DNA of 36,599 bases from a candidate division KSB1 bacterium. GTDB taxonomy: Bacteria; Zhuqueibacterota; JdFR-76; DREG01. A model generated the notes under the pieces. That model did not search any database, was not told where the DNA came from, and was given only the letters and a program-made list of their open reading frames with translations. The DNA is taken from the NCBI GenBank assembly GCA_022566355.1, contig JADFJB010000034.1, positions 1-36,599 of the forward strand, in the 5' to 3' direction. Positions 3,827 to 34,658 of this stretch are shown in pieces. The position numbers and the translations under genes are program-made. How positions within the stretch are numbered: position 1 is the stretch's first letter; each line of letters opens with the position of its first letter.

Positions 3827-3855
3827 TTGACAAGTTCTTTTTAATGATATATATT
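3827..3855 (+). promoter_or_regulatory. Near-consensus sigma70-type promoter
   Basis: TTGACA at 3827-3832 is followed by a 17-bp spacer and TATATT at 3850-3855. This matches the -35/-10 consensus closely and would start transcription near 3862, about 22 nt before the ATG at 3884. The short leader has no clear Shine-Dalgarno site. Confidence 0.6.
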
Positions 3856-3883: not shown

Positions 3884-5524
3884 ATGAAGTATAAAACTAA
3901 ACTAACATTACTTTTCCTTTTCATTTGCTCGTCCAATAATGTTGCTCAACAGAAGTCTACATGGGAAGTTATTCAAGATAAAATTTTAACACCCAACTGT
4001 ACGAGTTGTCATGTTGCAGGATCTTCTTTTGCCATTCAATCGGGGTTGGTTTTAACCAAGGATGTTGCTTATAAAAATATAGCAAATGGTACGCCTAACA
4101 ATGAAGCAGCGAGGGGCGATGGATTATTACTGGTGGGAAATAAAGGGCTCGAAAGTCTTTATAAAAGCTATTTGTGGGAAAAAATTGATGCTCCCGATCA
4201 AGAACATTTTTTTTCGGATCATCCGTATTATGGCTCTCTTATGCCTTTGGGGGCGCCACCCCTTACCAATGGACAATTGAAATTTATGAAAGAATGGATA
4301 CTTGCCGGAATCCCCGAAACCGGAATTGTGGCAGATGAATCCATTCTTGAAGATACTAGTAGATTTGAAATTCCTGAGTTTCAACCACTGCTTCCACCTG
4401 AACACGGCGTGCAACTTCATCTTGGCCCTTTCGACGTTCAACCCAATTTTGAAAGAGAATTTTTTTATTACCTCCCGCTGAATAATAAAGAGGAGATTTT
4501 TATAAATCGTGTAGAAATAAATATGCGGCGAGGAAGCCATCATTTCATTGCATATCAATTTAATTCTGAAATTCCTGATTATTTAATCCCCCAGGCGAAT
4601 GTTATTCGAGATATTCGTAACAGTGACGGAAGCTATAATATTTTAAATTTATTAGCCACGCCATTTCATACTTTTGTTACTGGTACGCAGTGGCCAAACT
4701 TGAATTATCATTTACCCCCGGGGGTAGCCTTAAGGCTACCGGCCAATATCGGATTGGATTTAAATCTACATTATGTAAATAGAACCGATGAGATTATGCA
4801 AGGTGAAATATATACAAATTTACACTTTGTAGAACCTAAGGATGTTGTTCATGAAGCAAAGACACTCAATCTTGGGAAATTTGATATAGAACTTCCACCT
4901 CATCAAGTAACTACTTTAACTAAAGTATTTACATTTTGGGAGACCAGATATATCTTCCAGCTATTCTCTCATGCACATGAACATATGACAGAATTTCGAG
5001 TTGAGATTGATGGAGGTCCAAGGAATGGAGATCTTGTCTATATCACTTACGATTGGGAACACCCGCCTATTCTGGAATTAGATCCCCCGTTAGTCATAGA
5101 AGAAGGCCAGGGTCTAAAACTAATCACAACGTATAATAATTGGACAGATCGTACTTTAAATTTTGGCTTGCGTAGCGATGATGAAATGATGATTCTTTTT
5201 GGCGGATATTACTTGAAAACGGCCACGAGTGTTGAAGATAATGGGCGAGTTAACCAGCCTGAAGTTTTTACCTTGGAGCAGAATTATCCAAACCCATTTA
5301 ATCCACAAACCACGATTAGTTACAAGTTACCTCAACAAACTCACGTCAATTTGGCTATTTATGATATAACAGGAAGAATAGTTGAACAATTACTTGATGA
5401 TACTCAACCTGCAGGAGTCCATCAAATTATTTGGAACGCGAATGGCGCTCCCTCCGGTATGTATATTGTTAGAATCAAAACGGATAGTTTTCAGTCTATG
5501 CGGAAAATGCTGTATTTGAAGTAA
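3884..5524 (+). CDS. Secreted mono-haem / PHM-type copper monooxygenase-like protein with T9SS sorting domain
   Basis: The 546-aa product has three parts. After a signal peptide (residues 1-21) comes a cytochrome-c-like or planctomycete-type haem domain with one CxxCH (CTSCH, 39-43) and a possible distal ligand in SLMPLG (118-123). The middle (about 170-445) resembles the two-domain fold of copper type II ascorbate-dependent monooxygenases (PHM/DBH). It has the CuM/CuH-type landmarks HH in GSHHFIAY (219-220), LHY (His296), HAHEH (363-367) and DDEMM (Met435 or Met436). The C-terminus (about 466-546) is a type A T9SS sorting domain starting QNYPNPFNP and ending in MLYLK. The expected role is an outer-surface or secreted oxidoreductase whose haem could feed electrons to copper. 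Substrate and activity are unknown. It has its own promoter. Confidence 0.8.
   Translation: MKYKTKLTLLFLFICSSNNVAQQKSTWEVIQDKILTPNCTSCHVAGSSFAIQSGLVLTKDVAYKNIANGTPNNEAARGDGLLLVGNKGLESLYKSYLWEKIDAPDQEHFFSDHPYYGSLMPLGAPPLTNGQLKFMKEWILAGIPETGIVADESILEDTSRFEIPEFQPLLPPEHGVQLHLGPFDVQPNFEREFFYYLPLNNKEEIFINRVEINMRRGSHHFIAYQFNSEIPDYLIPQANVIRDIRNSDGSYNILNLLATPFHTFVTGTQWPNLNYHLPPGVALRLPANIGLDLNLHYVNRTDEIMQGEIYTNLHFVEPKDVVHEAKTLNLGKFDIELPPHQVTTLTKVFTFWETRYIFQLFSHAHEHMTEFRVEIDGGPRNGDLVYITYDWEHPPILELDPPLVIEEGQGLKLITTYNNWTDRTLNFGLRSDDEMMILFGGYYLKTATSVEDNGRVNQPEVFTLEQNYPNPFNPQTTISYKLPQQTHVNLAIYDITGRIVEQLLDDTQPAGVHQIIWNANGAPSGMYIVRIKTDSFQSMRKMLYLK
4714..4740. repeat. Two overlapping perfect palindromes inside the monooxygenase-like gene
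   Basis: ACCCCCGGGGGT (4714-4725) overlaps the 18-bp perfect palindrome GGTAGCCTTAAGGCTACC (4723-4740). They encode PPGVALRLPA just before the LHY copper-ligand strand. Reading frame and protein motif are undisturbed, so this is either chance within conserved codons or a REP-like insertion kept in frame. Confidence 0.6.
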
Positions 5525-5620
5525 GTCAATTTATTATCACCTCAATTTATTCAAACCTCGAAACTAATCCTCATTCATTTCGTATTTTTTGAATCAATTT
5601 ATCATAACTATTCACTAGAT

Positions 5621-5929
5621 AGGCTGTAGCTTTTTAGGCTGTAGTAGGAACCGCGGTTTCAGTTCCGTCCAATCCCAACGCTTCGGGATAGAAGCATGTA
5701 CGAGAGAAAGTCAGGTTGAATATCTTCGTCCCAGATGGCCGGGATCGCTTTTGGATCGTTAAATGAATTATATTATCAGTTTAGCCTTGCCAAACGGTTG
5801 GGATACTTCAAAGAGTATGAAAGAGCGAATATTAACGAGTCGAAAATTGCAGAAACTGAAAATATCCTAGGCACTTTGATTAGAACAATGCGCAAAACCT
5901 AACAACCTTATAGCCTATAGCCTACAGTC
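5621..5929. repeat. Repeat-rich gap flanking a gene remnant
   Basis: The 600-bp gap 5525-6127 has no intact gene. On the left are two direct copies of aggctgtag (5621-5629 and 5636-5644) and an inverted pair ggaac/gttcc (5647-5651 and 5662-5666) around CGCGG. On the right is a 7-nt tandem run, tatagcc, tatagcc, tacagtc (5909-5929). Its cctacagtct is close to the inverse of the left copies. The four-helix-bundle remnant lies between these inverted repeats. Confidence 0.6.
5735..5902 (+). pseudogene. Four-helix-bundle (S23/IVP-type) protein remnant, C-terminal part
   Basis: An open frame of 55 codons starting MAGIAFGSLNELYYQFSLAK and ending GTLIRTMRKT matches the C-terminal half of the four-helix-bundle proteins often found in FCB genomes and linked to 23S rRNA intervening sequences. 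Family members carry GS(L)xEL..QL..A..LG and end with LxxLIRxLRK. The N-terminal half (the usual SxSIxANxxEA region) is absent: a TGA lies in frame at 5717-5719 and no match is seen upstream. The ATG at 5735 is probably an internal codon rather than a true start. The piece sits between inverted repeats. Confidence 0.65.
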
Positions 5930-6127
5930 TAAACACCTGAATAGTTACAATTTTGTCTTCAATCACTTATCGCCTTGGTTGTTCTTGACTTTAAGATCAC
6001 GAAAAGGTAATTTGACAATAAGCACTTTATTTAAGATTTAATTCACGGAAATGATAAGACCGGTATAAATTCCTTTCTGAAAGAATTTATAAAATTTTGA
6101 ATCCATAACAAAAACTTCGGGAGGCTT

Positions 6128-8224
6128 ATGTTAAAATCAAACTTAATTTATAGATTAAGTTGCGCTCTGATCTTCAGTGCAAGTTGTGTTTTTGCCCAAC
6201 AGGCAACGCTGGAAAAACAACCGGTACTTTTTGCGGAACCATTGAGTCCACGAATTGCCAATTATGATATTGACGTCAAACTGGACACGGAAACCCGAAT
6301 TCTTACGGGAAAACAAACTCTGGTTTGGCACAATACCTCAAATGACCAGATTGACGAGTTGCAATTTCACCTGTATCTTAATGCATTCCGCAATAATCAA
6401 TCTACTTTTATGCAGGAATCCGGCGGCACACATCGTGGTAACGTGATTGATGATGACGGCTGGGGGTTTATGGAAGTGGAAAAAATCACAACCGCTGATG
6501 GCGAAGATTTGACTTCAGGCTTGGAATTCATTCATCCTGATGATAATTATTTAGACGATAAAACTGCTGCAAGGGTACCGCTTTCAAAATCCATCCCTCC
6601 AGGAGGATCGATCGTCGTGACCATTGACTTTAAAGCCAAATTACCTAGCCCTCCGTTTGCCCGTACCGGGGCAAAGGATGAGTATTTTTTTGTTGGGCAA
6701 TGGTTTCCCAAAATAGCGGTATATACTGAAGATGGCTGGAATAATCATCAATTTCATGCCAATTCAGAATTTTTTGCGGATTACGGTGTTTATAATGTCA
6801 AAATTACTGTTCCTGAAGAGAATGTGGTAGGTGCGACGGGTCTGGAAGTAGACCTGGTCAATAACGGCGATGGTACAGCGACCCACTATTTCCATGCAGA
6901 GGATGTGCATGATTTTGCCTGGACCACAAGCCCGGAATTTGTAGAATTTACCGGCAAGGCGCAAGATGTTGACATTCGTGTTCTCATGCAGCCGGATCAT
7001 GCTTACCAGGGTGAACGACATTTAGCTGCTACGATAGCATCTGTTGAATATTTTCAAAATTGGTATGGTGATTATCCATTCCCGAATTTAACGGTAATCG
7101 ATCCCAGGCGAGGAGCGGAAGGCTCCGGTGGCATGGAGTATCCAACTTTAATAACTGCCATGACACAATATGGTTTGCCTGAAGGGATAAGAGTTGTTGA
7201 GATGGTTATCGTCCATGAATTTGGTCATAATTTTTGGTATCACTTGTTGGCTTCAAATGAATTTGAAGAAAGCTGGATGGATGAGGGGATCAATACCTAC
7301 ACAGAAATTCAAATTATGGATGCGGAATATGCCAAAGAAGGACGAGGTGGAATGATTGATTTTCTCGGTATCAAAATCAATGATGTCCAGTTGCAGCGTG
7401 GTCAATATCTTTTTGGCGCTGATCTGGATCCGGTTGTGAAAAAGGCCTGGGATTTTTACAATAACACAAGTTATGGCATCAATTCGTACGCAAAACCTGG
7501 CGTCATTTTAACCACTCTGCAGAATTATATCGGTACAGAAAAAATGAAAGAAGTGATGCAGGCCTATGTCCATCGCTGGCGCTTTAAACATCCGAAATCA
7601 CAGGATTTCTTTGATGTCGTGAATGATGTAGCCGGACAGGATTTTACCTGGTTTTTTGACCAGGCGTTCTATTCCAGGAAACAAATCGATTACAGCGTAG
7701 CAAACGTTTTTTCACGGGAGATTCGAGAAAAGACAGGATTTGATTTTTCTATTTCAACTGATGAAATGGATACAGATTTAACAATTAGTACTTCCGATTC
7801 AACTTCAGAATTTATCCTGGAAGAAGCCGAACCTATGGAGGGTGACTCTGTTGAATCCGTCGAAGAAGAGGACAGCCCCAAAATGTTTTACAACGAAGTA
7901 AGAGTTCGGCGTTTAGGCGACTTTGTGTTTCCAGTTGAGATCCAAATCGTATTCGATAACGGTGATACTTTAGTTGAAAATTGGGATGGCAAGGACTTAT
8001 GGAAAAAATATAAATATACAAGACCAAACAAGCTGGTTTCGGCAACAGTCGATCCGGGACAAAAAATAATTCTCGATGTTAATTTTACCAATAATAGCCG
8101 GTTGGTTGATAACCGGTCGATTGGGATTAATAAACTGTCGATCCGTTGGATGTTCTGGATGCAATTTTTAATCGACCAACCGGATTTCATAAACTTGTTG
8201 TCGGCATTTAACGAGGTGTTTTAA
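6128..8224 (+). CDS. Exported M1-family metallopeptidase (gluzincin)
   Basis: The 698-aa zinc aminopeptidase-like protein has a signal peptide (about residues 1-23, ending VFAQ). An N-terminal beta domain (about 40-270) is typical of M1 enzymes. The GxMEN-like exopeptidase loop is GGMEY (334-338). The zinc site is HEFGH (363-367) with the third ligand Glu386 in WMDEG, giving HExxH-x18-E. After about residue 555 an acidic linker rich in Glu/Asp/Ser leads to a C-terminal beta domain. It probably trims peptides in the periplasm or at the surface. Replacement of Asn by Tyr in GGMEY may change N-terminus recognition. A GGGAGG-like site precedes the ATG. The membrane-protein gene 68 bp downstream is probably cotranscribed. 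Confidence 0.9.
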   Translation: MLKSNLIYRLSCALIFSASCVFAQQATLEKQPVLFAEPLSPRIANYDIDVKLDTETRILTGKQTLVWHNTSNDQIDELQFHLYLNAFRNNQSTFMQESGGTHRGNVIDDDGWGFMEVEKITTADGEDLTSGLEFIHPDDNYLDDKTAARVPLSKSIPPGGSIVVTIDFKAKLPSPPFARTGAKDEYFFVGQWFPKIAVYTEDGWNNHQFHANSEFFADYGVYNVKITVPEENVVGATGLEVDLVNNGDGTATHYFHAEDVHDFAWTTSPEFVEFTGKAQDVDIRVLMQPDHAYQGERHLAATIASVEYFQNWYGDYPFPNLTVIDPRRGAEGSGGMEYPTLITAMTQYGLPEGIRVVEMVIVHEFGHNFWYHLLASNEFEESWMDEGINTYTEIQIMDAEYAKEGRGGMIDFLGIKINDVQLQRGQYLFGADLDPVVKKAWDFYNNTSYGINSYAKPGVILTTLQNYIGTEKMKEVMQAYVHRWRFKHPKSQDFFDVVNDVAGQDFTWFFDQAFYSRKQIDYSVANVFSREIREKTGFDFSISTDEMDTDLTISTSDSTSEFILEEAEPMEGDSVESVEEEDSPKMFYNEVRVRRLGDFVFPVEIQIVFDNGDTLVENWDGKDLWKKYKYTRPNKLVSATVDPGQKIILDVNFTNNSRLVDNRSIGINKLSIRWMFWMQFLIDQPDFINLLSAFNEVF

Positions 8225-9605: not shown

Positions 9606-10166
9606 TCAAAAATCATCTTCTACCTTGATCTTGTCAAAAGGATAATTTCTAACAAGTTCTCTAACAGCATCTTCATTCTCACGGAATCGATAATAATAGC
9701 TGCCAAACTCCCATTTTACTGGGTCATCTATCAGAAAGTGTTTCACAGGATTAAACCAGGTATAATTTATCCTCGCAAAATAAGATCGTTCGTAAGTTAA
9801 ACAGGTATCCCAGTAATTATACCATATCCTCTTTTTCTGTTCTAAATCCGGAAAAGTTTTCCTAAGTTTTAAAGTAGTAAACCTGTGGATATCCCTGATA
9901 ATTTTAGGCAAATCAACAGCGTTTTCTGGAGAATTGACAATCAAATGATAATGATTGTCTAGAATAACCCAATCTTCAAGATGCCAATCGCCTTTGGAGA
10001 ATCCTTTTATAATTGATTCTAACAGGATTTGTTTTGCGAACTTTGTCGAGAAATGGTGTAATTTTTGGTATGTGCTTGCTGTTATGAAGTATTTTGCATT
10101 TGGGATGAACAAATGTGGAGGATTGTGTTGATAGGTTTTGTAGATAATTTTTTGATTGGTTGTCAT
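9606..10166 (-). CDS. REP-associated tyrosine transposase (RAYT, IS200/Y1-like)
   Basis: The 186-aa product belongs to the Y1 HUH superfamily. The N-terminus has an FITASTYQK beta strand. The HUH metal site is NHYHLIV (His72 and His74) after WVILD. The C-terminal helix YFARINYTWFNPVKHFLI contains the NPVKH signature of RAYTs, with Tyr135 the likely nucleophile. RAYTs cut and join DNA at REP palindromes, and one such palindrome lies on each side of this gene in inverted orientation (9532-9550 and 10187-10205). This strongly supports the call and suggests a self-contained REP-RAYT unit. The gene is alone on its strand and looks intact. Start at MTTNQK, with no strong ribosome-binding site. Confidence 0.9.
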   Translation of the reverse strand: MTTNQKIIYKTYQHNPPHLFIPNAKYFITASTYQKLHHFSTKFAKQILLESIIKGFSKGDWHLEDWVILDNHYHLIVNSPENAVDLPKIIRDIHRFTTLKLRKTFPDLEQKKRIWYNYWDTCLTYERSYFARINYTWFNPVKHFLIDDPVKWEFGSYYYRFRENEDAVRELVRNYPFDKIKVEDDF

Positions 10167-10387: not shown

Positions 10388-13300
10388 TTACTCAGCTGGC
10401 ACAACTTCCATCGCTGTTTTACCTTTTTGTTTCGAAAGATAGAGAGCAGTAATCTTCTTGAAGTAAAGGCGCAAGTCATCAAAAAGTGTATATGCCCAAG
10501 GCACTGCAATTAATGTCAAGAGGGTTGAGGTAAGCAATCCACCTATGATAACTCTGCCCATGGGTGCATACGGAATTCCGATCATTTGTGCATTACCAAC
10601 CGCCATTGGCAGCAACCCGCCAATCGTTGTGAAAGCCGTCATTAATATGGGGCGAAATCGCTGTTTTCCAGCTTCGATAATTGCATCGTACCGGCTGTAG
10701 CCTTCTGTACGAAGTCTATTCACGAGATCGATTATAACGATGGCGTTGTTAACGACAATGCCAACTAGAATGACAAATCCGATTACACTCATAATGTCCA
10801 TTGTTGTGTTTGTTATAAATAATAACCAGAAAGCACCGACAAAGGCAAATGGGATAGACACAAGCACAGAAAGTGGTAAAACAAACGATTCAAACAAAAT
10901 GCCCATCAAAAGGAAAACAAAGATTACTGCCAGCATTAATGCAAAAGACTGGCTTTCGTTGGTTTGCTGCATACGGTCAAAGCGCTGCCCTTTGCTCCAG
11001 GAATATCCATAGGGCATTTCAAAACCCGCCATTACTTTATCTACTTTTCCAAATAAAGATTTCATATCATCCTGGGTAGAATTGGCTTTGATTCGTAGAA
11101 AGGTTTTGCCATTTTCACGTTGAATTTCGCCGAATCCTTTCTTCATAGTGAATGTTGCGATGGCATCTAATGGAATCTCTTTACCTGATCGAGAGAAAAA
11201 TGTCATATTTTTTAACTGAGAAAGATTCTTACGATCTTCTTTACGGAGTTGGATATGGACATCAATTTCTTTATCTTTAGTTTGATACTTAGGAAGTGGA
11301 ATTCCCCGCAAAGCATATTGCACGGTTCCGGAAATCGTAGCTGGTGAAATGCCATATTTTGCTGCCTGGTCTCGTTTTATGAATAAATGAATCTCATCAC
11401 TGCCATTTTCGCGATCGGTTTCGAGACTGATGATTTCATCGATGGTGCTTAATCTCCGTTCTACTTCCTTGGCTAAATCGGATAATGTATTGGTATCGTC
11501 ACCAAAAAGAAGGATTGAAAGAGATGCATCATCTCCGGCTTGTTGCCGCCAGGATGTGCGAACCGTGATTCCCGGGAAGTCGGGAATTCTTTTCATAATA
11601 TCTTCCAACACATCCTTCCTTTCCATTACACCGCCAGGAAGGTTGCCAAATTGTTTACTAATATTATCATAAACCACTTCATACCAATCTCTTCTTGGCT
11701 GAGGTTTAAGAAAAACCCGCATCATACCAAAATTATGGCTATGACGGGCGTCGATTGTCATGACCCCGTAAATATCACGTTTGACATTAATGGTATCCTC
11801 AATGGTTCCAAATACCCGGTCTGCATCTTCAATGGTGTAATTATCCGGCATTTCAAAATAAAGCCGAATATCGTTAATGTTACCGTTTGAATCCGTACTT
11901 TTGATATTGCTTATTGCATACGGCAAAGAAGCCATAACAAAGAGAAGGATCACACCCATTTCCAGACGATGGGTAACACTCCAGCTTAACATTCTCTGGT
12001 AAATCGCGTTGGCCTTTGTGATCACTTTAGCTTCTTTCACTTCTTTTTTGCTGGTAATCCGGGTAGCAGCGAGAGGAATAAATATCATTGCGATAAATAG
12101 TGATGCAATTAATGAAATGACAACAGGAAAACCGATACGGAACATATAGAACTGAAAACCCGTGTCGTCATTCATTAAGATTAAAGGCAAGAAAACCACT
12201 ACAGTCGTCATCGTTGCCATGGTAATCGCTAGAGCCACTTCGCTTGAACCAAATAATGAGGATTCCTTTTTTGATGCTCCTTGCGATCTCTTTCGATAAA
12301 TATTTTCCAGCACAACGATAGAATTATCGACTACCATACCAATAGAAATCATTAACCCCATCATGGTGATTAAGTTCAGAGTCCAGCCCATAAAATATAA
12401 GACTGTCATAGTAACCAGCACTGTCAGAGGAATTGCGATCGTTATAATAACTGTCATGCGAAATCGTCGGAGGAAAAAGTAAAGTATAAAGAAAGCAAAA
12501 AGTCCGCCCCACATTCCTGTGGTTAATAGGTTGTCGATGGATTCCTGAATGAATTTGCCCTGGTTAAACAAGATATCTATTTCCAAGCCCGCAAGTTTGG
12601 GATCTGCTTTAAAAGTTTCTTCAAACATCTTTTTAAGGTTATTGCAAAGTTCAACAGTATTGGCTGTTGATTCTTTAAAAACGCCCACGCTAATTCCTCT
12701 TTTGCCATTGATGGTCTGCCGCCATCTCCTCTCAGGAACATCATATTTAATTTCAGCAATGTCCTTTAGTTTTAAATTTGCACCACGAATCGGCAGATTT
12801 TTGAGCTGGTCCAGATCACTAAATTTCCCAACGGAGCGGACAAATATCTTCTGGTTGCCTTCGGTCACATAACCGCTTGCTAATGAAAAATTGTCATTTC
12901 TTAACTGTTGAATCGTTTCATAGAGATTAATATTGTAACTTCTAACTTTATCCTGGTTTATGTAAATCAGAATGGATTTTTCTTCGGCACCCCAAATTTC
13001 TACCTTTGCGACTCCATCGACTCGCTCCAGGGGTTTTTTCATCACTTGTTCGATCAAAAGATATGGATCTTCAAAGTGTTGGTTTTGTGCCATAGCAACC
13101 CAAAAAACAGGGTCGTCATCGTCAGTAAATTTACGTAAATAGATCCTTTCTATATCATCTGGCAGCTCAGCTCTAACCCGATCCATACGGTCCCGAAGCT
13201 GGGCATAAGCCACATCCATATCTGTGTTTTGTCTAAACTCAATAAAAGTCCAACAACCATTGCTGCTGCTGCTTGTATTTACCCGCCGCACACCATTGAT

Positions 13301-13540
13301 GGTTCGGCATTGTTCTTCGATGGGTTTGGCAATCTGCTCCTCAACTTCTTGTGGATTCGAGTTAGGGTAGGGCGTATAAACACCCAAAAATGGCGGAATA
13401 AAACCTTGTGGTAATAGCTCGACTGGGATTTGTGTAAACGAAATAAATCCCACAACTAATACTGCAAGAAGTGTCATCAAAACTGTTACAGGGCGGTTTA
13501 TGGAAAAACGCGGAAACAAGCTGCCTTTGAGTTTGGACAT
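10388..13540 (-). CDS. Efflux RND transporter permease subunit (second, standard length)
   Basis: The 1050-aa inner-membrane proton-driven pump is of the AcrB/HAE-1 type. TM1 is at about residues 18-36 (TVLMTLLAVLVVGFISF), followed by the porter-domain start SNPQEVEEQIAKPIEEQ. The TM4 proton-relay segment reads ISIGMVVDNSIVVLENI, keeping the first Asp and replacing the second with Asn as in many HAE-1 proteins. TM10 has GIVVNNAIVIIDLVNRLR. Near the C-terminus are GGLLPMAVGN and TLIAVPWAYTLFDDL. The length is normal. It is the last gene of a three-gene operon (adaptor, 1280-aa permease, this one), 58 bp after the larger permease. Two different permeases with one adaptor suggest a hetero-oligomeric pump, as in MdtBC. 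The substrate cannot be read from sequence. Confidence 0.92.
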   Translation of the reverse strand: MSKLKGSLFPRFSINRPVTVLMTLLAVLVVGFISFTQIPVELLPQGFIPPFLGVYTPYPNSNPQEVEEQIAKPIEEQCRTINGVRRVNTSSSSNGCWTFIEFRQNTDMDVAYAQLRDRMDRVRAELPDDIERIYLRKFTDDDDPVFWVAMAQNQHFEDPYLLIEQVMKKPLERVDGVAKVEIWGAEEKSILIYINQDKVRSYNINLYETIQQLRNDNFSLASGYVTEGNQKIFVRSVGKFSDLDQLKNLPIRGANLKLKDIAEIKYDVPERRWRQTINGKRGISVGVFKESTANTVELCNNLKKMFEETFKADPKLAGLEIDILFNQGKFIQESIDNLLTTGMWGGLFAFFILYFFLRRFRMTVIITIAIPLTVLVTMTVLYFMGWTLNLITMMGLMISIGMVVDNSIVVLENIYRKRSQGASKKESSLFGSSEVALAITMATMTTVVVFLPLILMNDDTGFQFYMFRIGFPVVISLIASLFIAMIFIPLAATRITSKKEVKEAKVITKANAIYQRMLSWSVTHRLEMGVILLFVMASLPYAISNIKSTDSNGNINDIRLYFEMPDNYTIEDADRVFGTIEDTINVKRDIYGVMTIDARHSHNFGMMRVFLKPQPRRDWYEVVYDNISKQFGNLPGGVMERKDVLEDIMKRIPDFPGITVRTSWRQQAGDDASLSILLFGDDTNTLSDLAKEVERRLSTIDEIISLETDRENGSDEIHLFIKRDQAAKYGISPATISGTVQYALRGIPLPKYQTKDKEIDVHIQLRKEDRKNLSQLKNMTFFSRSGKEIPLDAIATFTMKKGFGEIQRENGKTFLRIKANSTQDDMKSLFGKVDKVMAGFEMPYGYSWSKGQRFDRMQQTNESQSFALMLAVIFVFLLMGILFESFVLPLSVLVSIPFAFVGAFWLLFITNTTMDIMSVIGFVILVGIVVNNAIVIIDLVNRLRTEGYSRYDAIIEAGKQRFRPILMTAFTTIGGLLPMAVGNAQMIGIPYAPMGRVIIGGLLTSTLLTLIAVPWAYTLFDDLRLYFKKITALYLSKQKGKTAMEVVPAE

Positions 13541-13598
13541 GGTTCTCTTCCTTACATACTGATGATCAAACCAATTTAATTATTACTTCGAATTCTCT

Positions 13599-16500
13599 TT
13601 AAGCTTTTCTGTCGACAATGCTGTAAACCGTTGGGATAACAACGAGCGTTAAAATAGTAGAAACCAGCAGTCCGACAATAACTGTGATTGCCATTGGCGT
13701 CCTAATTTCAGCTCCATCGCCTAATCCTATGGCCATAGGCAGCAATGCAAGAATAGTTGTTGCTGTCGTCATCATGATCGGGCGAAGCCGAACTTTACCC
13801 GCCTGAATAATGGCTTCCATCTTTTCCATTCCTTTCTGGCGCAATTTATTGATATAATCCACAAGAACAATTGCATTGTTAACGACGATTCCGGCAAGCA
13901 TAATCATGCCTAGAAACACGACGATGCTCATCGGAATTTGTAAAACAAACAGGGCAATCAAGACACCGATAAAACCGAGAGGAATCGTAAAAATAATTAC
14001 AAATGGGTGAATAAGCGACTCAAATTGGGAAGCCATTACGATATAGACCAGGAATATGGCCAGCATTAAGGCCAGCATTAAACTATTTAACGATGTTTCC
14101 ATTTCTTTGTTTTGGCCGGCCAGGTTGTAAGAAAATTCGAGCGGCATATCAGTATTTCCAAGAAGCGTATAAATATCTTCACTAATGCTTCGTAAATCAC
14201 GACCGCCGATATTTGCTGTAATTACTGCTGTTCTTTCCTGGTTCACCCTACGAATTTCAGCCGGGCCTTCATTCACACGAATTTCAGCCACAGCTTCCAG
14301 TGGTATTGGTTTCTCGCCACCCGGATTTATAATTAATCTCGATAAATTCTCAATACTTTGTTTGTCTTCATCCCGCAATCGGACCAGAATGTCAATTTTA
14401 CGATCTTTGTCTTTAAACTCTGTGGCAACATCACCTCGAACTTTATTCCGTACGATCGCAGCGACTTCAGAAATGTTTAATTCATAACGAGCTAAAAGTG
14501 GTCTGTTATAAATAATCTGTACTTCAGGATTCCCGCGCTGGACATTGGATTTTATATCAAATAAACCTGGAATGTTTTTCATATCCTCTTCCAACTTCTC
14601 AGAAATTTCCTGTAATATTTGTAGATTGTAACCATGAATTTCAACTTCGATAGGTGTTTTAAAACTAAACAGAACCGGTCGCGAAATTTTCCATTGCATC
14701 CCTGAATAATTATTCATTTGTGAGCGAATACGACGAATCAATTGTTCTTCCGAGTCAATCACGCTGCTTGCTCTTCGCATTTGAACAGTTAATTTCGATG
14801 TATGTTCTCCTTCTTCTGAGCTGGAATTTGAGGTCCTATCAGTGCCGGCGACCATGGCTACTTTGGCAACCGCCGGATCGTTCATTAAATATTGTTCGAT
14901 CGGTGTGCTCCGTTCTACAGTTAGCTCCACAGGCGTGCCAACCGGCATGGTGATGTCGATGTTAAATTCACCCTGGTGAACTTCGGGGATTAATTCGCTG
15001 CCAATCCTGGGTAAGATGAGCCATACAGTCAGCACAGCAACCGATGTAACGGAAGCAAGCGTAGTAGATTTATTGGTGAGCGCATAAATTAGAACCCTTG
15101 GATAGAACGATTCCAGTTTTCCATAAGACCAATTAAAAAGGGCAAAAACAAGCTTTGCAGGTCCAGATAATATTAGCTTAAATGACATGAGAGTGCCCTT
15201 TAGAAATACTGAAGCTGATATGATAAAATAATGAGAAAATCGGAAGGGCAACTCTAATAAGAAGGTATAAATGACATACTTGACGGTATAAAAGAAAATT
15301 GTGACCGGTAGAAATAAAATTCTACCGATTTTTCCTTTCCACTTACTACTTTCTATTTTTGCCTTAATAGAATACAAATCCTCCAGAAAAACAGGAAGAG
15401 AATTATTAACCAGGTATGTTGGCCAGATTTCTTTCACGAATTGGACACGCCAAAAGTCAGGATTTTGTGCGTAAGCGATAACCTTTTCACTCATTTTGAA
15501 TTTTAAAATTCGTAACAGTCTGAGCAGAAAACCAATCGGCAATAGTAAAAGAAGAATAGGCAATGTAAGAAATTTAATAAATACAATAAACAGGGCAGCT
15601 GTGGTTTTAAATAATTTTAGAAAAACTAATCCTATCGTTCTCAGTAATACAATTATGCCTGTAATTATTTTCGAAAAAAACCCTGCTTGCAAATTACCGT
15701 TTACCAAATTTGAAATGTCAGAATCTGTTGAAAATGAAAGGATATGTTTTTTTAGCAATTCACCCATTTGAACACCGGAGATGAATTTGCTGGTTTCTCT
15801 GGAAGCTAGCATCGGAATGAGAAAAAGAGCAACAGCTAAAGAAGCGAGCAATGAGAAAACTACCGTAAGCGCCATGTCGCCGAAAATTTGTCCCGCCACG
15901 CCTTCTACAAATACAATAGGGAAGAATACCGCAACCGTTGTAAGAGTTGAGGCAAAAACTGCACTGCCGACTTCACTCACTCCTCTTACCGTAGCTTGAA
16001 TCAAATCATCCCCTTCTTCCCGACAGCGGAAGATACTTTCCAAAACGACAATTGAATTATCCACCAGCATTCCGATTCCAAGCGCTAGCCCACCCAAAGA
16101 CATAATGTTCAAGGATACGCCGAACATTTTCATGGGAGCAAATGTTGCAATAATAGAAACCGGAATGGCAATGCCAACGATCAACGTTGCAGTCAAATTT
16201 CGGAGGAAAATGAACAAAACCAACACGGCCAGCATTCCACCGATGATTGCTGTAGATTTTACTTCATTTACTGAATTTTCGATAAAGATTGATTGATCGG
16301 ACAAAATATCCATATTGATACCGGATGGCAATTCATACGCGATGAAGTTAGTCATTTGTCGCAAAAGAAATTCCTGCCCACGACCGCCTTGACGGCCACC
16401 TTTGGCAGTTTTTTGCTCTTCCTCTTGTTTTTCCTCTTTCTCTTTTTTGGAGGATTCCAATCTTTGCACGAAAGCTTGTTGCTCGGCTGTACCAAAGACT

Positions 16501-17441
16501 CTTTCTGTTACTCGCTCAGCTACGGTGACAATATTCGCATCAGCTTCTTTATAAATTTCAATTTCAACGCTTTCGTGACCGCCAATGCGGGTTATAATCT
16601 CTCGTTCTTTAAAAGTCCGTTTTACATTTGCAACATCACGAATTTTTATTTCTCTATCATTCCATGTTCCAATGACAACTTCTGCAATTTCATTAACAGA
16701 TTTGAATTCGTTTAGTGTGCGGACGATATATTCAGTCTGACCCTCCTTTAAATTGCCCCCGGCCAGGTTTACATTCTCCTGGGCAAGGCGATTTCGTACC
16801 TGCTGAATATTGATGCCAATCAACGTGAGTTTTTGTTCGTTCAGCTCAACACGAATTTCTTCTTCCAAACCACCTTTGACTTTTACAGCTGCAACACCCT
16901 CGATAGTTTCAAGTTTTCTTTTGATGTCTTCTTCAGCCATATAACGAAGATAAACGAGTGAAATATCGCCATAAAGGCCAAATCGAATTATTGGATCAAG
17001 TGATGGGTCGTATCGCAAAATAATTGGCCGTTTCGCCTCATCCGGAAGGAATACCTGGTCTAACTTTTCCCGAACCTCGGCAGAAGCTTCGTTCATATCG
17101 GTGCTCCAGGTATATTCCAGCTTAACATCCGATTGTCCTGCTTTGGAAATAGAGCTGATTCCAACTAGATTATTAACGACGCCTAACGCTTGCTCCACAG
17201 GTCGTGAAATTTGTGTTTCTATTTCTTCGGGAGCTGTGCCGGTATATTCGGTGCGAACCGTTAATGATGGATAAGTAATATCAGGCATCAGGTTTAATGG
17301 AAGTTGCTGATAGGATATCCAGCCAAAAACGCCAACACCAATAGCAACCATTAAAATAGCCACCGGTCTTTCTGTTGTAAATCTAAAGAAATCTCCAACT
17401 TGTCTTTTAGTGTCTGAGATTTTTGATTGAGGGGAATCCAT
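13599..17441 (-). CDS. Efflux RND transporter permease subunit with extra membrane segments
   Basis: The 1280-aa RND permease is about 230 residues longer than usual. The core is canonical: TM1 near residue 27-45, porter motifs (TGTAPEEIETQISRPVEQAL), the TM4 relay GIGMLVDNSIVVLESIF with Asp460, and the C-terminal LPMAIGLGDGAEIRTPMAI. Extra sequence occurs in two places. A Lys/Glu/Gln-rich stretch with GGRQGGRG lies at about 329-357. A block at about 553-775, between TM6 and TM7, has three long hydrophobic stretches (590-645, 705-730 and 737-770) separated by basic linkers. The reading frame is unbroken and both flanks are in register, so this is a real insertion. It is cotranscribed with the adaptor upstream and a second permease downstream. 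The inserted block matches nothing I recognise. Confidence 0.92.
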   Translation of the reverse strand: MDSPQSKISDTKRQVGDFFRFTTERPVAILMVAIGVGVFGWISYQQLPLNLMPDITYPSLTVRTEYTGTAPEEIETQISRPVEQALGVVNNLVGISSISKAGQSDVKLEYTWSTDMNEASAEVREKLDQVFLPDEAKRPIILRYDPSLDPIIRFGLYGDISLVYLRYMAEEDIKRKLETIEGVAAVKVKGGLEEEIRVELNEQKLTLIGINIQQVRNRLAQENVNLAGGNLKEGQTEYIVRTLNEFKSVNEIAEVVIGTWNDREIKIRDVANVKRTFKEREIITRIGGHESVEIEIYKEADANIVTVAERVTERVFGTAEQQAFVQRLESSKKEKEEKQEEEQKTAKGGRQGGRGQEFLLRQMTNFIAYELPSGINMDILSDQSIFIENSVNEVKSTAIIGGMLAVLVLFIFLRNLTATLIVGIAIPVSIIATFAPMKMFGVSLNIMSLGGLALGIGMLVDNSIVVLESIFRCREEGDDLIQATVRGVSEVGSAVFASTLTTVAVFFPIVFVEGVAGQIFGDMALTVVFSLLASLAVALFLIPMLASRETSKFISGVQMGELLKKHILSFSTDSDISNLVNGNLQAGFFSKIITGIIVLLRTIGLVFLKLFKTTAALFIVFIKFLTLPILLLLLPIGFLLRLLRILKFKMSEKVIAYAQNPDFWRVQFVKEIWPTYLVNNSLPVFLEDLYSIKAKIESSKWKGKIGRILFLPVTIFFYTVKYVIYTFLLELPFRFSHYFIISASVFLKGTLMSFKLILSGPAKLVFALFNWSYGKLESFYPRVLIYALTNKSTTLASVTSVAVLTVWLILPRIGSELIPEVHQGEFNIDITMPVGTPVELTVERSTPIEQYLMNDPAVAKVAMVAGTDRTSNSSSEEGEHTSKLTVQMRRASSVIDSEEQLIRRIRSQMNNYSGMQWKISRPVLFSFKTPIEVEIHGYNLQILQEISEKLEEDMKNIPGLFDIKSNVQRGNPEVQIIYNRPLLARYELNISEVAAIVRNKVRGDVATEFKDKDRKIDILVRLRDEDKQSIENLSRLIINPGGEKPIPLEAVAEIRVNEGPAEIRRVNQERTAVITANIGGRDLRSISEDIYTLLGNTDMPLEFSYNLAGQNKEMETSLNSLMLALMLAIFLVYIVMASQFESLIHPFVIIFTIPLGFIGVLIALFVLQIPMSIVVFLGMIMLAGIVVNNAIVLVDYINKLRQKGMEKMEAIIQAGKVRLRPIMMTTATTILALLPMAIGLGDGAEIRTPMAITVIVGLLVSTILTLVVIPTVYSIVDRKA

Positions 17442-17466
17442 AATGTTTTTTCTCTAAATTAAAATT

Positions 17467-17571
17467 AACTGATAACTGATAACTGATAACTGATAACTGA
17501 TAACTGATAACTGATAATTGATAATTGATAATTGATAATTGATAATTGATAATTGATAATTGATAATTGAA
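17467..17571. repeat. 7-nt tandem repeat inside the efflux operon
   Basis: Seven perfect copies of aactgat (17467-17515) run without interruption into seven perfect copies of aattgat (17516-17564), ending in aattgaa. The array fills most of the 131-bp gap between the adaptor stop (17573-17575) and the next permease start (17441). Because 7 is not a multiple of 3 and no frame contains a stop, on the minus strand it can be read in any frame as repeats of NYQLSII. Confidence 0.97.
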
Positions 17572-17572
17572 T

Positions 17573-18706
17573 TTAGGTTCCGGAAAACTTTGTTTCTCGA
17601 TTCGTAACAATTTTTACTTTGGTTTGATCTTTTAAACCAGCTTGTCCCACCAGAATAATTTTGTCACCTTCTTCAATCGATGAAAGTGATTCAATTTTTT
17701 CATGATCTTGATAACCCACATCCAATTTAATTTTATGAGCAATACTATCTCGTACAACAAAAACATTCATGTACTCGTTTTCATAAATAATAGCTGTCTT
17801 AGGAATAAGAATTGCATTTTTGTGTGTATTTGTAATAATTCTGCAATTAACAAACATTCCAGGTCTAAGTTTATTATTTGTATTTCTAACTCCTATGGTA
17901 ACTTTGAAAGTCCCACTTTGAGGATCGACAACCGGGCTGACTCTTTTGATCCAACCTGGGAATAAATCGCCTTTTATGTGGTCAGAATAGATATAAGCCT
18001 GTTGCCCTTTTTTGATAATACCTATCTCTTTTTCCGGGATGTGAACAACCGCAATCATCTCATCCGTATTGACTACTGTAAATAACTTATCAGAAGTTTG
18101 AATTCTGTCTCCCTCACGACATAATCGCTCTCCAATTACACCGGTAATGGTTGACGTGATTTTGGTATATTTGAGGTTTAATTTTGCCTGCTGCCAGGCA
18201 ATCCTCGCAGCATCAGCAGCAAATTTTGCTGTTTCATATTCTTCATTACTCAATAGGTTTTTATCAGCCATTGCTCTTGACCGATTATACATACTTTGCT
18301 TTTGTTGATACTCGACATGTGCTTTTTCTTCAGCCAGAATGTATTCATCCGCTTCCAATTCAAGCAAAACTTGACCTTTAGCTACGAAAGTTCCTTCTTC
18401 GAGATTAATCTTCTCGACAAGCCCTTGAACGCGCGAGTAAACATCAATCATCTTTTCTGTTTCAAGATTTGAACTATACAATAAATAAGAGGATATGGTG
18501 CCACGAGACACTGTGGTCGTTTCAACAGGGATGAGGGTTTCTTCAGACTTTTTCTCTTTCTCACTGTCTACTTTAGAGGAATCTGCCTGTGCTTTGTGGG
18601 AACCGTTCGTGCCTTTTTGGCCGTCTGCTTCACTGTTTGAACAGCTTATCTGAAAGACTGCCAGGCTTAAAGTTATGAGTAGAATCAACGCTTTTTTAGT
18701 GCTCAT
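17573..18706 (-). CDS. Efflux RND periplasmic adaptor subunit (membrane fusion protein), lipoprotein
   Basis: The 377-aa HlyD/AcrA-family adaptor has a lipoprotein signal (residues 1-22, lipobox FQISC), so it is probably anchored in the inner membrane. A Lys/Ser/Glu-rich linker (about 25-60) follows. The first lipoyl half-motif is VQGLVEKINLEEGTFVAKGQ. A short helical hairpin (AEEKAHVEYQQKQ to AARIAWQQAKLNLKYT) and the second lipoyl half (ITGVIGERLCREGDRI) come next, followed by the beta-barrel and membrane-proximal domain with LRPGMFVNCRI. The short hairpin suits an RND rather than an ABC system. It is the first gene of the operon, with CAGGAG about 8 nt before the ATG. No TolC-like channel gene is linked; that component must be encoded elsewhere. 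Confidence 0.92.
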   Translation of the reverse strand: MSTKKALILLITLSLAVFQISCSNSEADGQKGTNGSHKAQADSSKVDSEKEKKSEETLIPVETTTVSRGTISSYLLYSSNLETEKMIDVYSRVQGLVEKINLEEGTFVAKGQVLLELEADEYILAEEKAHVEYQQKQSMYNRSRAMADKNLLSNEEYETAKFAADAARIAWQQAKLNLKYTKITSTITGVIGERLCREGDRIQTSDKLFTVVNTDEMIAVVHIPEKEIGIIKKGQQAYIYSDHIKGDLFPGWIKRVSPVVDPQSGTFKVTIGVRNTNNKLRPGMFVNCRIITNTHKNAILIPKTAIIYENEYMNVFVVRDSIAHKIKLDVGYQDHEKIESLSSIEEGDKIILVGQAGLKDQTKVKIVTNRETKFSGT

Positions 18707-27406: not shown

Positions 27407-28384
27407 TTATCTACCTTTAATTCCTCTAACCGCACCTGCAATTAAATTATAGGCTGCTTTTAAGGACAATTGATCTTTGTCATCGATCGGATATGACGCA
27501 ATGCCAATTGCGGATGTTTTTTCATATTTGAACATCAATTCCAAGGCAGCGGCTAACTCCTTGCTGGTAGGGCCATTGGGAACTGTGAGGGGGTGTCCCA
27601 TTACTTCCTTTGGGTCCAAAACATCCATATCGATGTGGATATATATTTTGTCTGTTAACCCGCTCAATCTCTTCATTTGATGATGGATATTGTCTGTTAA
27701 ATTTCGGATATCATCAGTTGAAATCATTTCGATTAATGAATTGTCGAAGCGCTCCTGCTCCAATGGATCAGTATCTCTTAACGCACCCATGACAATATAT
27801 TTTTCCGGAATTGCCGGATCCAAACCCGATTGCAAACGCATTCGCGTCAGACAATGACCGGCTGCAATCGCGACAGGCATGCCACCAAGCATGCCACTGA
27901 GTGTGGTTTCCGGTGTATTGAAATCACCGTGCGCGTCGATAAAAACCAGGCCGATTCTTAATGGTCGTTTACTTGTACCTGAATGCTGCAATCCGGCAAG
28001 CATTCCCATTAAGGAACTACAGTTATTTAAGAGTCCCACATTAAAATTGCCGTCTCTTTCGTTTTTTGCAACCCATTGCCCCAACCGGTTATTGGCATAA
28101 CCAAATTTATTCCAGACGCCATATTCTTTTTCTTCTTCCTTTGATAATTGTACGTTGGAAATGTTTACTATTTTGCCACCCATTCCTGAAAGAATATCTT
28201 TCAGCCCGCTATGTTCCAATATGTCTGGTCCTTTGGATATAGGCGAGCCGCTACGATCTCCTTTGTATGGATTTTTGACCAGGGCTATTTTTATTTTACC
28301 ATCATTGTCTATGTATTTTTGAGCATAAACATTAATTGGAATACTCAAAAGACAAATTATGGCGAAGGCAAATATTTTTTTCAT
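27407..28384 (-). CDS. Exported arginase/agmatinase-family (ureohydrolase) protein
   Basis: The 325-aa product has the ureohydrolase fold and binuclear-manganese motifs: DAHGD (Asp150, His152, Asp154) and DMDVLDP (Asp252, Asp254). The usual first metal ligand, His in GGDH, is replaced by Cys122 in LLNNCSSLMG. A clear signal peptide (MKKIFAFAIICLLSIPINVYAQ) precedes the domain, which is unusual because arginases and agmatinases are normally cytosolic. The frame opens at 28396, but GAGG 6 nt before the ATG at 28382-28384 and the signal peptide fix the later start. The reaction may be hydrolysis of a guanidino compound to urea, but the ligand change makes this uncertain. Its stop-to-start distance to the amidohydrolase gene upstream is 43 bp, so the two may be cotranscribed. 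Confidence 0.85.
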   Translation of the reverse strand: MKKIFAFAIICLLSIPINVYAQKYIDNDGKIKIALVKNPYKGDRSGSPISKGPDILEHSGLKDILSGMGGKIVNISNVQLSKEEEKEYGVWNKFGYANNRLGQWVAKNERDGNFNVGLLNNCSSLMGMLAGLQHSGTSKRPLRIGLVFIDAHGDFNTPETTLSGMLGGMPVAIAAGHCLTRMRLQSGLDPAIPEKYIVMGALRDTDPLEQERFDNSLIEMISTDDIRNLTDNIHHQMKRLSGLTDKIYIHIDMDVLDPKEVMGHPLTVPNGPTSKELAAALELMFKYEKTSAIGIASYPIDDKDQLSLKAAYNLIAGAVRGIKGR

Positions 28385-28427
28385 TGATGACCTCATTTTT
28401 AAGATTGAATTAACGATTTAGATCCCT

Positions 28428-30314
28428 CTAATTGGCTGGATTTTTCTTTAGTTCAAATCCGGGTTTCTGGTATTGAATCTTTCCACCAACCATAGTAAAA
28501 AGAATTTTCGAATTCATTTGTAATAATTCTTCATTTTCTATATTCAACAGATCGGCATCCAGGATAACTAAATCTGCAAGTTTGCCGACTTGAAGGGAGC
28601 CGCGAATAGGGTCGTCATAGGTCAGATATGCCCCGTTGATGGTATATGTTTTCAGTGCTGCCAGAAGTGGTATCCGCTGTTCAGGGCCATGAACCTCACC
28701 TGATAATTGATGTCGTCTTGTACGCATTTGGTAAATGCCAATCCAGGGATCGGGAGAATTATTCGGATAATCAGATCCGGATGCCATTCGGATTCCGGCA
28801 TCCAGAAATGTTTTGTAGGGTGTATGTCGCGACATTCTTTCCGGACCAATATTTCGCAGGAAGGAGTCTCCTTCAAAGTAAAGATTTGCCGGATTGATAG
28901 CAGCGATGATGCCGTATCTGGCCATTTCTTCAATCACTGCAGTATTTGGCTCATCAGGCAGATAACAGTGAATGATACTCCATCTCAAGTCAGCATTAGA
29001 ATCTTCTTTTTTAATCTGGTCCATAAGGATTTTATAAGCATCCACAGTTTGTCGAATAGCCGCATCTCCACAGGCATGGGTATGCAACTCCCAGCCATAA
29101 TTAGTGAGTTTGTTGAATTGTTCGAATCTATAATTAAAATCAGGATCTCGAAAAGCACCGTAGTTTTCACCACCCAATGGATCTTCAGGTATGGACAAGA
29201 ATGGCACCGAAACTGCTGCACTTCTGGAACCGATGCCTCCATCAGCGGAGATTTTAGCTCCACGAATTCGAAACATTTCGTTGCCAATATTATGAAATCC
29301 TAAAGCCTTAAGGCGATTTTCTATCTGTTTGGGATCACCCAAACCGGTTGGATCACCGCTGCGATACCAGCCATCGTAGATATTCACCCTGACCGGTAGG
29401 TTGCCGGTATCATACGCTGCTTGATAAATCTTGGTAACACTGCCCATTCTGGAACCTGCCTCGACAATGCTTGTGATTCCCAGTGAGGATAGTACTTCCA
29501 AACCCAGGATAAGGCTTTCTACTTTTTGCTTAAAGGATTGTTCAGGGATTACTTTTGAAATCAATAAAGGTGCTTTGGTGCCAACGAAGACACCGTTTGG
29601 CAGGCCAGAATCCGGGTCTCGAAAAATAATATCTCCAGCCTCAAACTCGGCTGGATCTTCTTTAAACCATGTAGGGTGGGTAGATGGATCATCGAAATCA
29701 ATGCCAAGCAGCTCGAAGACTTTGGTGTTTACTGCAATTCCATTATAAATGCGTTCTAGTGAGACCGGAATGTCTCGGGAAACATGGTCCAATTCATGGC
29801 GATTGGCCATGCGTTTTTCCACAAGCCGATCCTGGGTCCATCCCAGGCCGAATAGCCATTTCCCCATCTCTCCGGTGGTTGGATATTCCCAACCATCGAG
29901 ATTATTTTCTTTTTTGAGTTTGTCGAGGCGGTCTTTCAGTAATCGCTCGATATCAGCTATATTTTTGGCAGGTTCCATATTGACTGCATAATATTGCTGA
30001 AAACCGAGGTCGCGTACATGAATGTGAGTTTCGTTGATTCCGGGAATGATCGTTCGTCCACCAAGATCATACGATTTTGTTGAGGATCCCTTGAAACGCT
30101 CCATATCCTGATCTGAGCCAACAGCTATAATTTTATTTCCCAAGACCGCAATAGCGCTAGATTGAGGATTACTCTCATCCATAGTTAAGATTTTTGCGTT
30201 GGTATAAATCAGGTCTGCTTTTAGATTTGTTTGAGCTAAAGATGAATGAGATGCTAAAAATGAAACACTTAGGAGGAATAAGGTTGACAAAACTATTTTT
30301 TGAAGTTTAGGCAT
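28428..30314 (-). CDS. Exported amidohydrolase, YtcJ-like (paralog A)
   Basis: The 628-aa product is a TIM-barrel metal-dependent hydrolase of the YtcJ/COG1574 group. It has the HxH pair in ETHIHV (His97, His99), later ligands HTHACGDAA and SIIHCY, and the Asp in GSDYPNNSPDPW. The C-terminal composite beta-sandwich reads GSLQVGKLADLVILD. The frame extends 20 codons upstream to a TTG, but the signal peptide (MPKLQKIVLSTLFLL to SLAQ) starts at ATG 30312-30314, so that start is used even though its ribosome-binding site is weak. It is the most divergent of the three YtcJ-like paralogs here and about 50 residues longer. Substrate unknown; amides or formamide-like compounds are usual. Confidence 0.88.
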   Translation of the reverse strand: MPKLQKIVLSTLFLLSVSFLASHSSLAQTNLKADLIYTNAKILTMDESNPQSSAIAVLGNKIIAVGSDQDMERFKGSSTKSYDLGGRTIIPGINETHIHVRDLGFQQYYAVNMEPAKNIADIERLLKDRLDKLKKENNLDGWEYPTTGEMGKWLFGLGWTQDRLVEKRMANRHELDHVSRDIPVSLERIYNGIAVNTKVFELLGIDFDDPSTHPTWFKEDPAEFEAGDIIFRDPDSGLPNGVFVGTKAPLLISKVIPEQSFKQKVESLILGLEVLSSLGITSIVEAGSRMGSVTKIYQAAYDTGNLPVRVNIYDGWYRSGDPTGLGDPKQIENRLKALGFHNIGNEMFRIRGAKISADGGIGSRSAAVSVPFLSIPEDPLGGENYGAFRDPDFNYRFEQFNKLTNYGWELHTHACGDAAIRQTVDAYKILMDQIKKEDSNADLRWSIIHCYLPDEPNTAVIEEMARYGIIAAINPANLYFEGDSFLRNIGPERMSRHTPYKTFLDAGIRMASGSDYPNNSPDPWIGIYQMRTRRHQLSGEVHGPEQRIPLLAALKTYTINGAYLTYDDPIRGSLQVGKLADLVILDADLLNIENEELLQMNSKILFTMVGGKIQYQKPGFELKKNPAN

Positions 30315-30464
30315 TTTTTTATGGCTTTGACTGATTCCATCGATCCAGAAGACTGCGTGAAAACAGGATTTCAATGAAAAAAAGGTTTGAAATGGTTACC
30401 TCATTATAGAATTCATTCGCACTCACAAATAAAGTTGTGTGCTTCTATATTATTATATTATTAA

Positions 30465-30570
30465 TTAACCTGGATAATTCATGAACCTTATCACTGTCAT
30501 CCAGTAGCGACGGGATGACACTTTTGAAACTTCAAGCTTAATACTATAATTCATGAATAGTGCAGGTTAA
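30465..30570. mobile_element. MITE-like element, 106 bp, with nested palindrome
   Basis: The ends are imperfect 21-bp terminal inverted repeats (30465-30485 and 30550-30570): TTAACCTG...ATTCATGAA on the left and its inverse TTCATGAAT...CAGGTTAA on the right. In the middle is a second palindrome, GTCATCC (30496-30502) and GGATGAC (30513-30519). There is no coding capacity. Related single arms are at 9421-9450 and, more weakly, 342-370. The matching transposase is not obvious; the RAYT here uses a different palindrome. Confidence 0.65.
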
Positions 30571-30591
30571 CAAAGGCTCATTACTAGTGAA

Positions 30592-30652
30592 TCCTACGAA
30601 TTCATTCGTGGGAATAAGTAAATCCTAAAAGAATCTAACCGTTTTAACGGTT
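30592..30652. repeat. Two tight hairpins downstream of amidohydrolase B
   Basis: TCCTACGAAT (30592-30601) and ATTCGTGGGA (30604-30613) pair with one mismatch around a 2-nt spacer. AACCGTT (30637-30643) and AACGGTT (30646-30652) pair perfectly. The second lies about 50 bp after the stop of the gene at 30701-32371 and could help end its transcript, but only a weak T run follows. Confidence 0.55.
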
Positions 30653-30660
30653 TCCCAACT

Positions 30661-30697
30661 CATTTTCACACAACCTTTCCAGGCGATGGAATCAATA
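30661..30697. repeat. Direct repeat flanking amidohydrolase B, copy 1
   Basis: CATTTTCACACAACCTTTCC followed by a GCGATGGAATCAATA tail resembles 32410-32445 (CATTTCACACAACCTCTC, then ACGATGAAATCAGTA). The two copies bracket the gene at 30701-32371 almost exactly. Confidence 0.6.
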
Positions 30698-30700
30698 TAA

Positions 30701-32371: not shown

Positions 32372-32409
32372 GGCTAAGTCTCTTTTTGAATTCTAATAAC
32401 AATTATGTC

Positions 32410-32445
32410 CATTTCACACAACCTCTCAAAACGATGAAATCAGTA
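32410..32445. repeat. Direct repeat flanking amidohydrolase B, copy 2
   Basis: See the matching copy at 30661-30697. It lies 39 bp before the start codon of the amidohydrolase gene, so it may overlap that gene's promoter or leader. Confidence 0.6.
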
Positions 32446-32470
32446 TTTCACGTTAGTTGTCTGCCGTCTC

Positions 32471-32531
32471 AGCCAAGGAGATTGCCACGTCGTCTTTCGA
32501 CTTCGTCTCAAGGACTCCTTGCAATGACACG
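32471..32531. repeat. REP-like nested palindrome
   Basis: Outer arms CAAGGAG (32474-32480) and CTCCTTG (32515-32521) enclose an inner GTCG/CGAC hairpin (32489-32492 and 32498-32501). With GAGATTGCCACG on one end and GCAATGACA on the other, it resembles the GTCATTGC...GCAATCTC class of short palindromic repeats seen in many bacterial genomes. Confidence 0.7.
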
Positions 32532-32570
32532 GTTCTTGATGTTTATTTTTCTTTTTTCTTTTTTACTTTG

Positions 32571-32626: not shown

Positions 32627-32639
32627 GTTCGTTTCGCAT

Positions 32640-34639: not shown

Positions 34640-34658
34640 AAACCTTCTTTTATTTATC

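Follow-up and report, generated by a model that had tools for sequence, protein, structure and literature searches.

The window analysed here, the whole stretch of 36,599 nucleotides from a candidate division KSB1 bacterium, holds at positions 3884-5524 of the forward strand a gene that starts with ATG and encodes a protein of 546 amino acids. The residues singled out in the first-pass annotation of this DNA were all found where it had placed them: CTSCH at 39-43, HH at 219-220, the LHY histidine His296, HAH at 363-365 and Met435/436. Upstream of the gene lies a sigma-70-like promoter candidate, TTGACA-17-TATATT (3827..3855, +), which was picked out by consensus scan only and agrees with the consensus at 11 of 12 positions. 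Because such a scan returned 11 promoter-like sites in the region where 9.6 were expected, the assignment of this site as the gene's own promoter is suggestive and no more.

The encoded chain opens with an N-terminal signal peptide (MKYKTKLTLLFLFICSSNNVA; 3884..3946, +), recognised by sequence inspection, with an approximate cleavage point ahead of QQ. By inspection this signal is of the Sec type and has no lipobox, unlike the signals of those relatives that have no T9SS tail. At the opposite end a flexible linker (5222..5254, +; model residues 427-437, pLDDT <50) runs ahead of a T9SS type A C-terminal sorting domain, which spans residues 468-542 (5285..5509, +). The sorting domain was recognised by PF18962 (E = 4.6e-11) and TIGR04183 (E = 4.6e-12), bearing out the T9SS tail, and with it the T9SS export, that had been proposed from the bare sequence. 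As is typical of T9SS cargo, this tail is accompanied in the genome by the T9SS component PorU, a sortase present at full length (5.4e-266), and around 85 similar T9SS tails occur elsewhere in the same genome. Because proteins for cytochrome c assembly and a haem-copper oxidase are encoded in the genome as well, T9SS export, maturation of a c-type haem and use of O2 are all plausible in this organism. The gene at 3884-5524 is the only PHM-like gene in the genome.

Residues 25-147 (3956..4324, +) form a c-type haem domain, in which C39, C42 and H43 are predicted to attach the haem and W138 is conserved. M120, which was absent from the earlier list of residues, is the probable distal haem ligand. 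The haem ligands are invariant in alignments of 42-52 relatives, and the predicted model of the domain is helical with a pLDDT of 95. It follows the order of a class I cytochrome c: in the numbering of the model, which is that of the protein minus 20, a helix at 6-19 ends at C19 of the CxxCH motif and M100-P101 precedes a helix at 109-120. When a profile of the haem domains of the wider family (A5) was compared with the PDB, all of the 60 matches listed were c-type cytochromes or other proteins containing a c-haem domain, the best of them hydrazine synthase alpha (4.7e-6). Members of the wider family match Cytochrome_CBB3, Cytochrom_C, Haem_bd and TIGR03806. The haem domain of the window protein, searched alone, gave no match to Cytochrome_CBB3, Cytochrom_C or TIGR03806 and is too divergent for these single models; a Foldseek search of its apo model alone against the PDB likewise returned nothing significant. 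The haem c domain of the first-pass annotation is supported, and it is very likely that the protein carries a c-type haem. We also considered fatty acid cis/trans isomerase (CTI) as an identity and rejected it, the weak match (0.08) covering only the short segment around the Met ligand of the haem domain. Cysteine occurs in the whole chain only at C15, within the signal peptide, and at C39 and C42; the mature chain thus has no cysteine beyond the two that would bind haem, and the disulfides of PHM are absent.

The copper domains are near-invisible to searches with the single sequence. Against PF03712 (Cu2_monoox_C) the window protein scored weakly (E = 0.13, with 12 bits where the cut-off is 23), a Pfam scan gave no match to PF01082, and PHM was not among the PDB matches returned by phmmer. 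Relatives were therefore needed to test the recognition of the copper domains. Four family proteins from the same phylum (L015/L036, L016/L038, L019/L035 and L020/L034) exceed the curated cut-off of PF03712, and all 10 sequences of a profile built from close relatives of the window protein (A1) match PF03712 at E-values up to 1. Compared with the PDB, the A1 profile found PHM as its best match (1.6e-4) and nothing else of significance, and in this alignment LHY, HAH and DEM fall on PHM H172, H242/H244 and M314. A further profile restricted to close relatives (A2) did not reach PHM, showing that divergent members are needed.

Such members were brought together in A3, which combines the core of the window protein with 22 bacterial PF03712 cores that are 12-52% identical to it. 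Across these 23 cores only eight columns are invariant: H219, H220, H296, H363, H365, M435, one Gly and the Glu of DEM. If invariance were placed at random, the chance that all six of the named columns would be invariant is approximately 4e-11. The A3 profile aligns over essentially the full core with PHM (4e-29) and human DBH (3e-26). Consistent with this, invariance of His, Met and Cys in the alignment of 52 sequences is confined to the columns C39, C42, H43, M120, H219, H220, H296, H363, H365 and M435. The alignment with PHM resolves two domains and, in order, a three-His CuH-type site and a CuM-type site of two His and one Met. The PHM-like N-domain (approximately residues 175-315; 4406..4830, +), for which Foldseek also returned PHM/DBH, carries the CuH-type ligands H219 and H220 (codons at 4538..4543, +) and H296 (4769..4771, +), all invariant and aligned with PHM H107, H108 and H172. 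The PHM-like C-domain (approximately residues 323-443; 4850..5212, +), which gives the weak PF03712 match, carries the CuM-type ligands H363 and H365 (the H363-A-H365 codons lie at 4970..4978, +), an invariant pair, and M435 (5186..5188, +), aligned with PHM H242, H244 and M314. The Met of the CuM-type site had initially been left as Met435/436. M435 is invariant, whereas the position after DEM varies among M, Q, N, G, L and C in the alignments of relatives; M436 was therefore rejected as a copper ligand and M435 retained. With this choice made, the full set of predicted copper ligands in PHM order stands, its six members invariant both in the 52 aligned sequences and in the 23 divergent cores.

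An AlphaFold2 model built from the 52-sequence alignment (pLDDT 88, pTM 0.76) was compared with the PDB using Foldseek. The top 31 matches were all DBH or PHM structures (E = 2e-12 to 4e-8, probability 1.00), with TM-scores normalised to PHM of approximately 0.6-0.67, whereas the next match outside PHM/DBH reached 8e-6 with a TM-score of 0.1. The first-pass annotation had staked its assignment on a PHM-like fold, and the predicted fold does match that of PHM/DBH, such that a PHM-type dicopper fold is almost certain. On the strength of the alignments and the model, the protein is placed in the type II copper monooxygenase superfamily (PHM/DBH; PF01082 and PF03712) as a member of a bacterial branch. 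That it acts as a monooxygenase is likely.

Homologues were found in 17 of the 147 genomes searched, mostly in the phylum of the window itself, the nearest being 52-65% identical. When A1 was run against a collection of 84,980 species genomes, 212 relatives were returned, and the best 80 of them belong to Calditrichota, KSB1, Gemmatimonadota, Fidelibacterota (Marinimicrobia), Rhodothermota, Latescibacterota, Bacteroidota and Planctomycetota. Every one of these best 80 has the haem motif. Further afield, among 27 bacterial PF03712 proteins that contain HH, 23 have CxxCH (or the variants CxxxCH and CxxxxCH) ahead of HH, in many cases preceded by a redoxin domain, and the other 4 have no haem motif. 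The recurrence of the motif in all 80 near and 23 of 27 wider proteins indicates that the pairing of the two modules persists from phylum to phylum, while the four proteins without haem (L121, L139, L123 and L130) imply that the copper fold is possible in its absence and that haem is not indispensable to the fold; two of the four come from one genome (G231) with four PF03712 matches. The initial description implied that the fusion was novel. This did not hold, as a haem c domain ahead of the copper core is the usual bacterial PF03712 arrangement and a feature of a broad bacterial family. The window gene is accordingly less singular and the family more interesting. A tree built by a quick method without bootstrap, in which long branches were flagged and only the main split is used here, has two deep clades, of which the first contains redoxin/cytochrome proteins with VVHH and the second, marked by GSHHF, includes the window protein. 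Scans of Pfam and NCBIfam turned up no model dedicated to the haem-PHM family, and the open-licence literature searched yielded no account of bacterial haem-PHM fusions; the family is widespread and apparently uncharacterised.

The means by which these proteins are held outside the cell varies. A T9SS-like tail is present in 11 of the 80 nearest relatives, none of which has a proper lipobox. The combination of a lipobox-like signal with no T9SS-like tail was found in approximately 59 of the 80 by a relaxed rule and in 36 by a strict one, these calls being pattern matches rather than the output of a dedicated prediction program. Most of the remaining nearest relatives are incomplete records. 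Type I dockerin modules were confirmed by Pfam in L076, L108, L077 and L088, the last two from Planctomycetota, and L088 fits the relaxed lipobox rule yet has a C-terminal dockerin. By inspection only, L021/L029 have a type I dockerin, and a PEP-CTERM-like segment can be seen by eye at the end of L088. Even the closest relative of the window protein in the tree, L039, has a lipobox where the window protein has a T9SS tail. Judged by these signals, most relatives look like lipoproteins, and the T9SS tail is one of several anchoring routes (T9SS tail, lipobox, dockerin) rather than a defining feature of the family. Such varied tethering outside the cell suggests that the job of these proteins is done at the cell surface.

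No neighbouring gene conserved across phyla was found around the relatives. The genes next to the one at 3884-5524, encoding an FG-GAP protein and an M1 peptidase, are found again at no more than one other locus. Within Fidelibacterota, a Lip_C lipase-like gene directly follows or overlaps the haem-PHM gene in approximately 17 loci (including L056, L057, L064-L068, L070, L071, L080 and L106), with a glutamine synthetase gene upstream; this neighbour is a weak hint of hydrophobic substrates in that phylum. In Latescibacterota the neighbour is an Amidohydro_2 protein. Elsewhere in the window, on the reverse strand, a REP-associated tyrosine transposase (9606-10166; NF047646 above cut-off) lies between the M1 peptidase region and RND efflux genes, which comprise two RND permease genes and an adaptor (10388-18706). 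One of these permeases (1280 amino acids; 13599-17441) is approximately 230 residues longer than its neighbour and matches its family in three stretches, suggesting a mid-gene insertion. Four consecutive amidohydrolase-family genes occupy 28428-36474, also on the reverse strand, beside an arginase-family gene at 27407-28396.

One KSB1 relative, L051, extends the arrangement. This protein of 1451 amino acids (first-module match at 5222-6478), which has a partial twin in L050, carries three haem-copper modules in tandem together with a T9SS tail. The first module is intact, and modules 2 and 3 keep both haem cysteines, the histidine and the distal Met. Relative to module 1, the haem domains of modules 2 and 3 are 57% identical and their copper domains 28-31%; of the six copper ligands, three are missing from module 2 (the equivalents of H219, H296 and H363) and none remains in module 3. 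Conservation of the haem domain therefore reaches beyond a role beside an intact copper site. As read from the sequence, this pattern would suit either an electron relay or a separate haem role.

These data allow us to propose a mechanism. On balance we favour a secreted, T9SS-displayed bacterial member of the PHM/DBH superfamily with a built-in haem redox partner that would feed the dicopper core. Copper would bind at both predicted sites, and an external donor would reduce the haem by one electron at a time, the haem handing these on to CuH and thence to CuM. CuM would then activate O2, leading to C-H hydroxylation of a substrate that is small or located at the surface, and ascorbate would not be needed once the haem delivers electrons. 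If the protein is a monooxygenase-type enzyme, it is more likely than not that the haem serves as electron donor. Residues R240, N316 and Y318 of PHM, which we take to anchor the peptide carboxylate, correspond in the A3 alignments to F361, I437 and F439 of the window protein. Given this replacement, a glycine-extended peptide is unlikely as the substrate, which is probably not peptidylglycine. More tentatively, and with somewhat less than an even chance, the proteins may constitute a large, apparently undescribed family of bacterial dicopper monooxygenases that are self-sufficient and tethered at the surface, rely on a built-in c-type haem rather than ascorbate and have a substrate other than a peptide, some lineages having a tandem haem relay round one working copper core.

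A fused haem does not in itself fix the direction of electron flow. The copper core might oxidise a substrate, or act as an oxidase- or dehydrogenase-like centre, with the haem as the exit for electrons to an outside acceptor and no monooxygenase reaction taking place. Such a role would sit comfortably with a family that is widespread without a known substrate and in which the peptide-anchoring positions of PHM are replaced. We nevertheless regard it as unlikely, as none of the six ligands of an O2-activating superfamily is missing or out of order, and the genome appears to be that of an aerobe. Characterised members of the PHM/DBH superfamily are, moreover, net electron consumers, which counts against flow in this direction.

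The retention of haem domains without working copper sites in L051 points to a value of their own, and the haem domain could therefore be a sensor, a gate, a docking module or a link to a surface electron network, with a small-molecule reductant supplying the catalytic electrons. Some bacterial relatives have no haem motif, and in a tethered CuNiR, RpNiR, the state of the haem gates access of the substrate (PMC13324648). Given this precedent, gating is a serious rival and a simple donor role is not to be assumed; we assign the sensor, gate or docking reading as a whole a low though appreciable probability, since a mono-haem c domain and an intact dicopper core are coupled across many phyla, which a donor fits most simply. 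Finally, the protein could be a copper-binding PHM-fold protein with no catalytic role, serving in metal storage or as a structural part of the surface, with a cytochrome domain attached. While there is no known substrate or partner gene and L051 contains copper-dead modules, two distinct ligand sets (three His; two His and one Met) are strictly kept, which fits catalysis better than storage, and degenerate modules were seen only beside an intact one, so that a non-catalytic protein appears improbable.

The PHM/DBH dicopper core is known from animal oxygenases that make hormones and neurotransmitters. A review table of cuproproteins places PHM and DBH under eukaryotes only (PMC7435645), in contrast to the homologues described here, which have intact ligands, are mostly fused to haem and occur in many bacterial phyla. 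With the haem as donor, the preferred reading, the window protein would be a testable candidate for a two-copper oxygenase that needs no vitamin C. If the haem does feed the coppers, these proteins would offer a single chain in which electron delivery to and between the distant coppers of the superfamily can be followed through the optical signals of the haem, and the family would provide ascorbate-free oxygenases for C-H hydroxylation.

The window protein shares with rat PHM (PDB 1phm/1opm) a two-domain beta-sandwich core with the same six ligands in the same order (H107, H108, H172; H242, H244, M314), the two coppers lying approximately 11 Å apart in the open form of PHM (PMC6123673). It differs from PHM in its fused haem c domain and T9SS tail and in having neither disulfides nor a PAL domain. 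With the carboxylate anchor replaced and the conserved disulfides absent, it falls outside PHM proper (EC 1.14.17.3). Human DBH (PDB 4zel) was the top Foldseek match (2e-12) and has a DOMON domain N-terminal to its copper core (PMC3197665). Both proteins therefore have an extra N-terminal domain, DOMON in DBH and a c-type cytochrome in the window protein, although the many cysteines and disulfides of DBH have no counterpart in the latter. A natural fusion of a c-haem domain with a copper enzyme is also found in RpNiR of Ralstonia pickettii, where the tethered cytochrome c serves the copper nitrite reductase and also controls substrate access (PMC13324648). Unlike the window protein, RpNiR has an unrelated cupredoxin fold and a C-terminal haem, and it reduces nitrite rather than activating O2. 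Among bacterial proteins, those that combine redoxin, cytochrome c and Cu2_monooxygenase domains (PF00578/PF13442/PF03712; for example, L037 and L126) have the same copper ligands and a haem motif approximately 140 residues before HH. They form a separate deep clade with VVHH in place of the GSHHF of the window protein, an MPPW haem motif and often an N-terminal redoxin, and the haem domain of the window protein is longer than theirs, with approximately 180 residues from CxxCH to HH.
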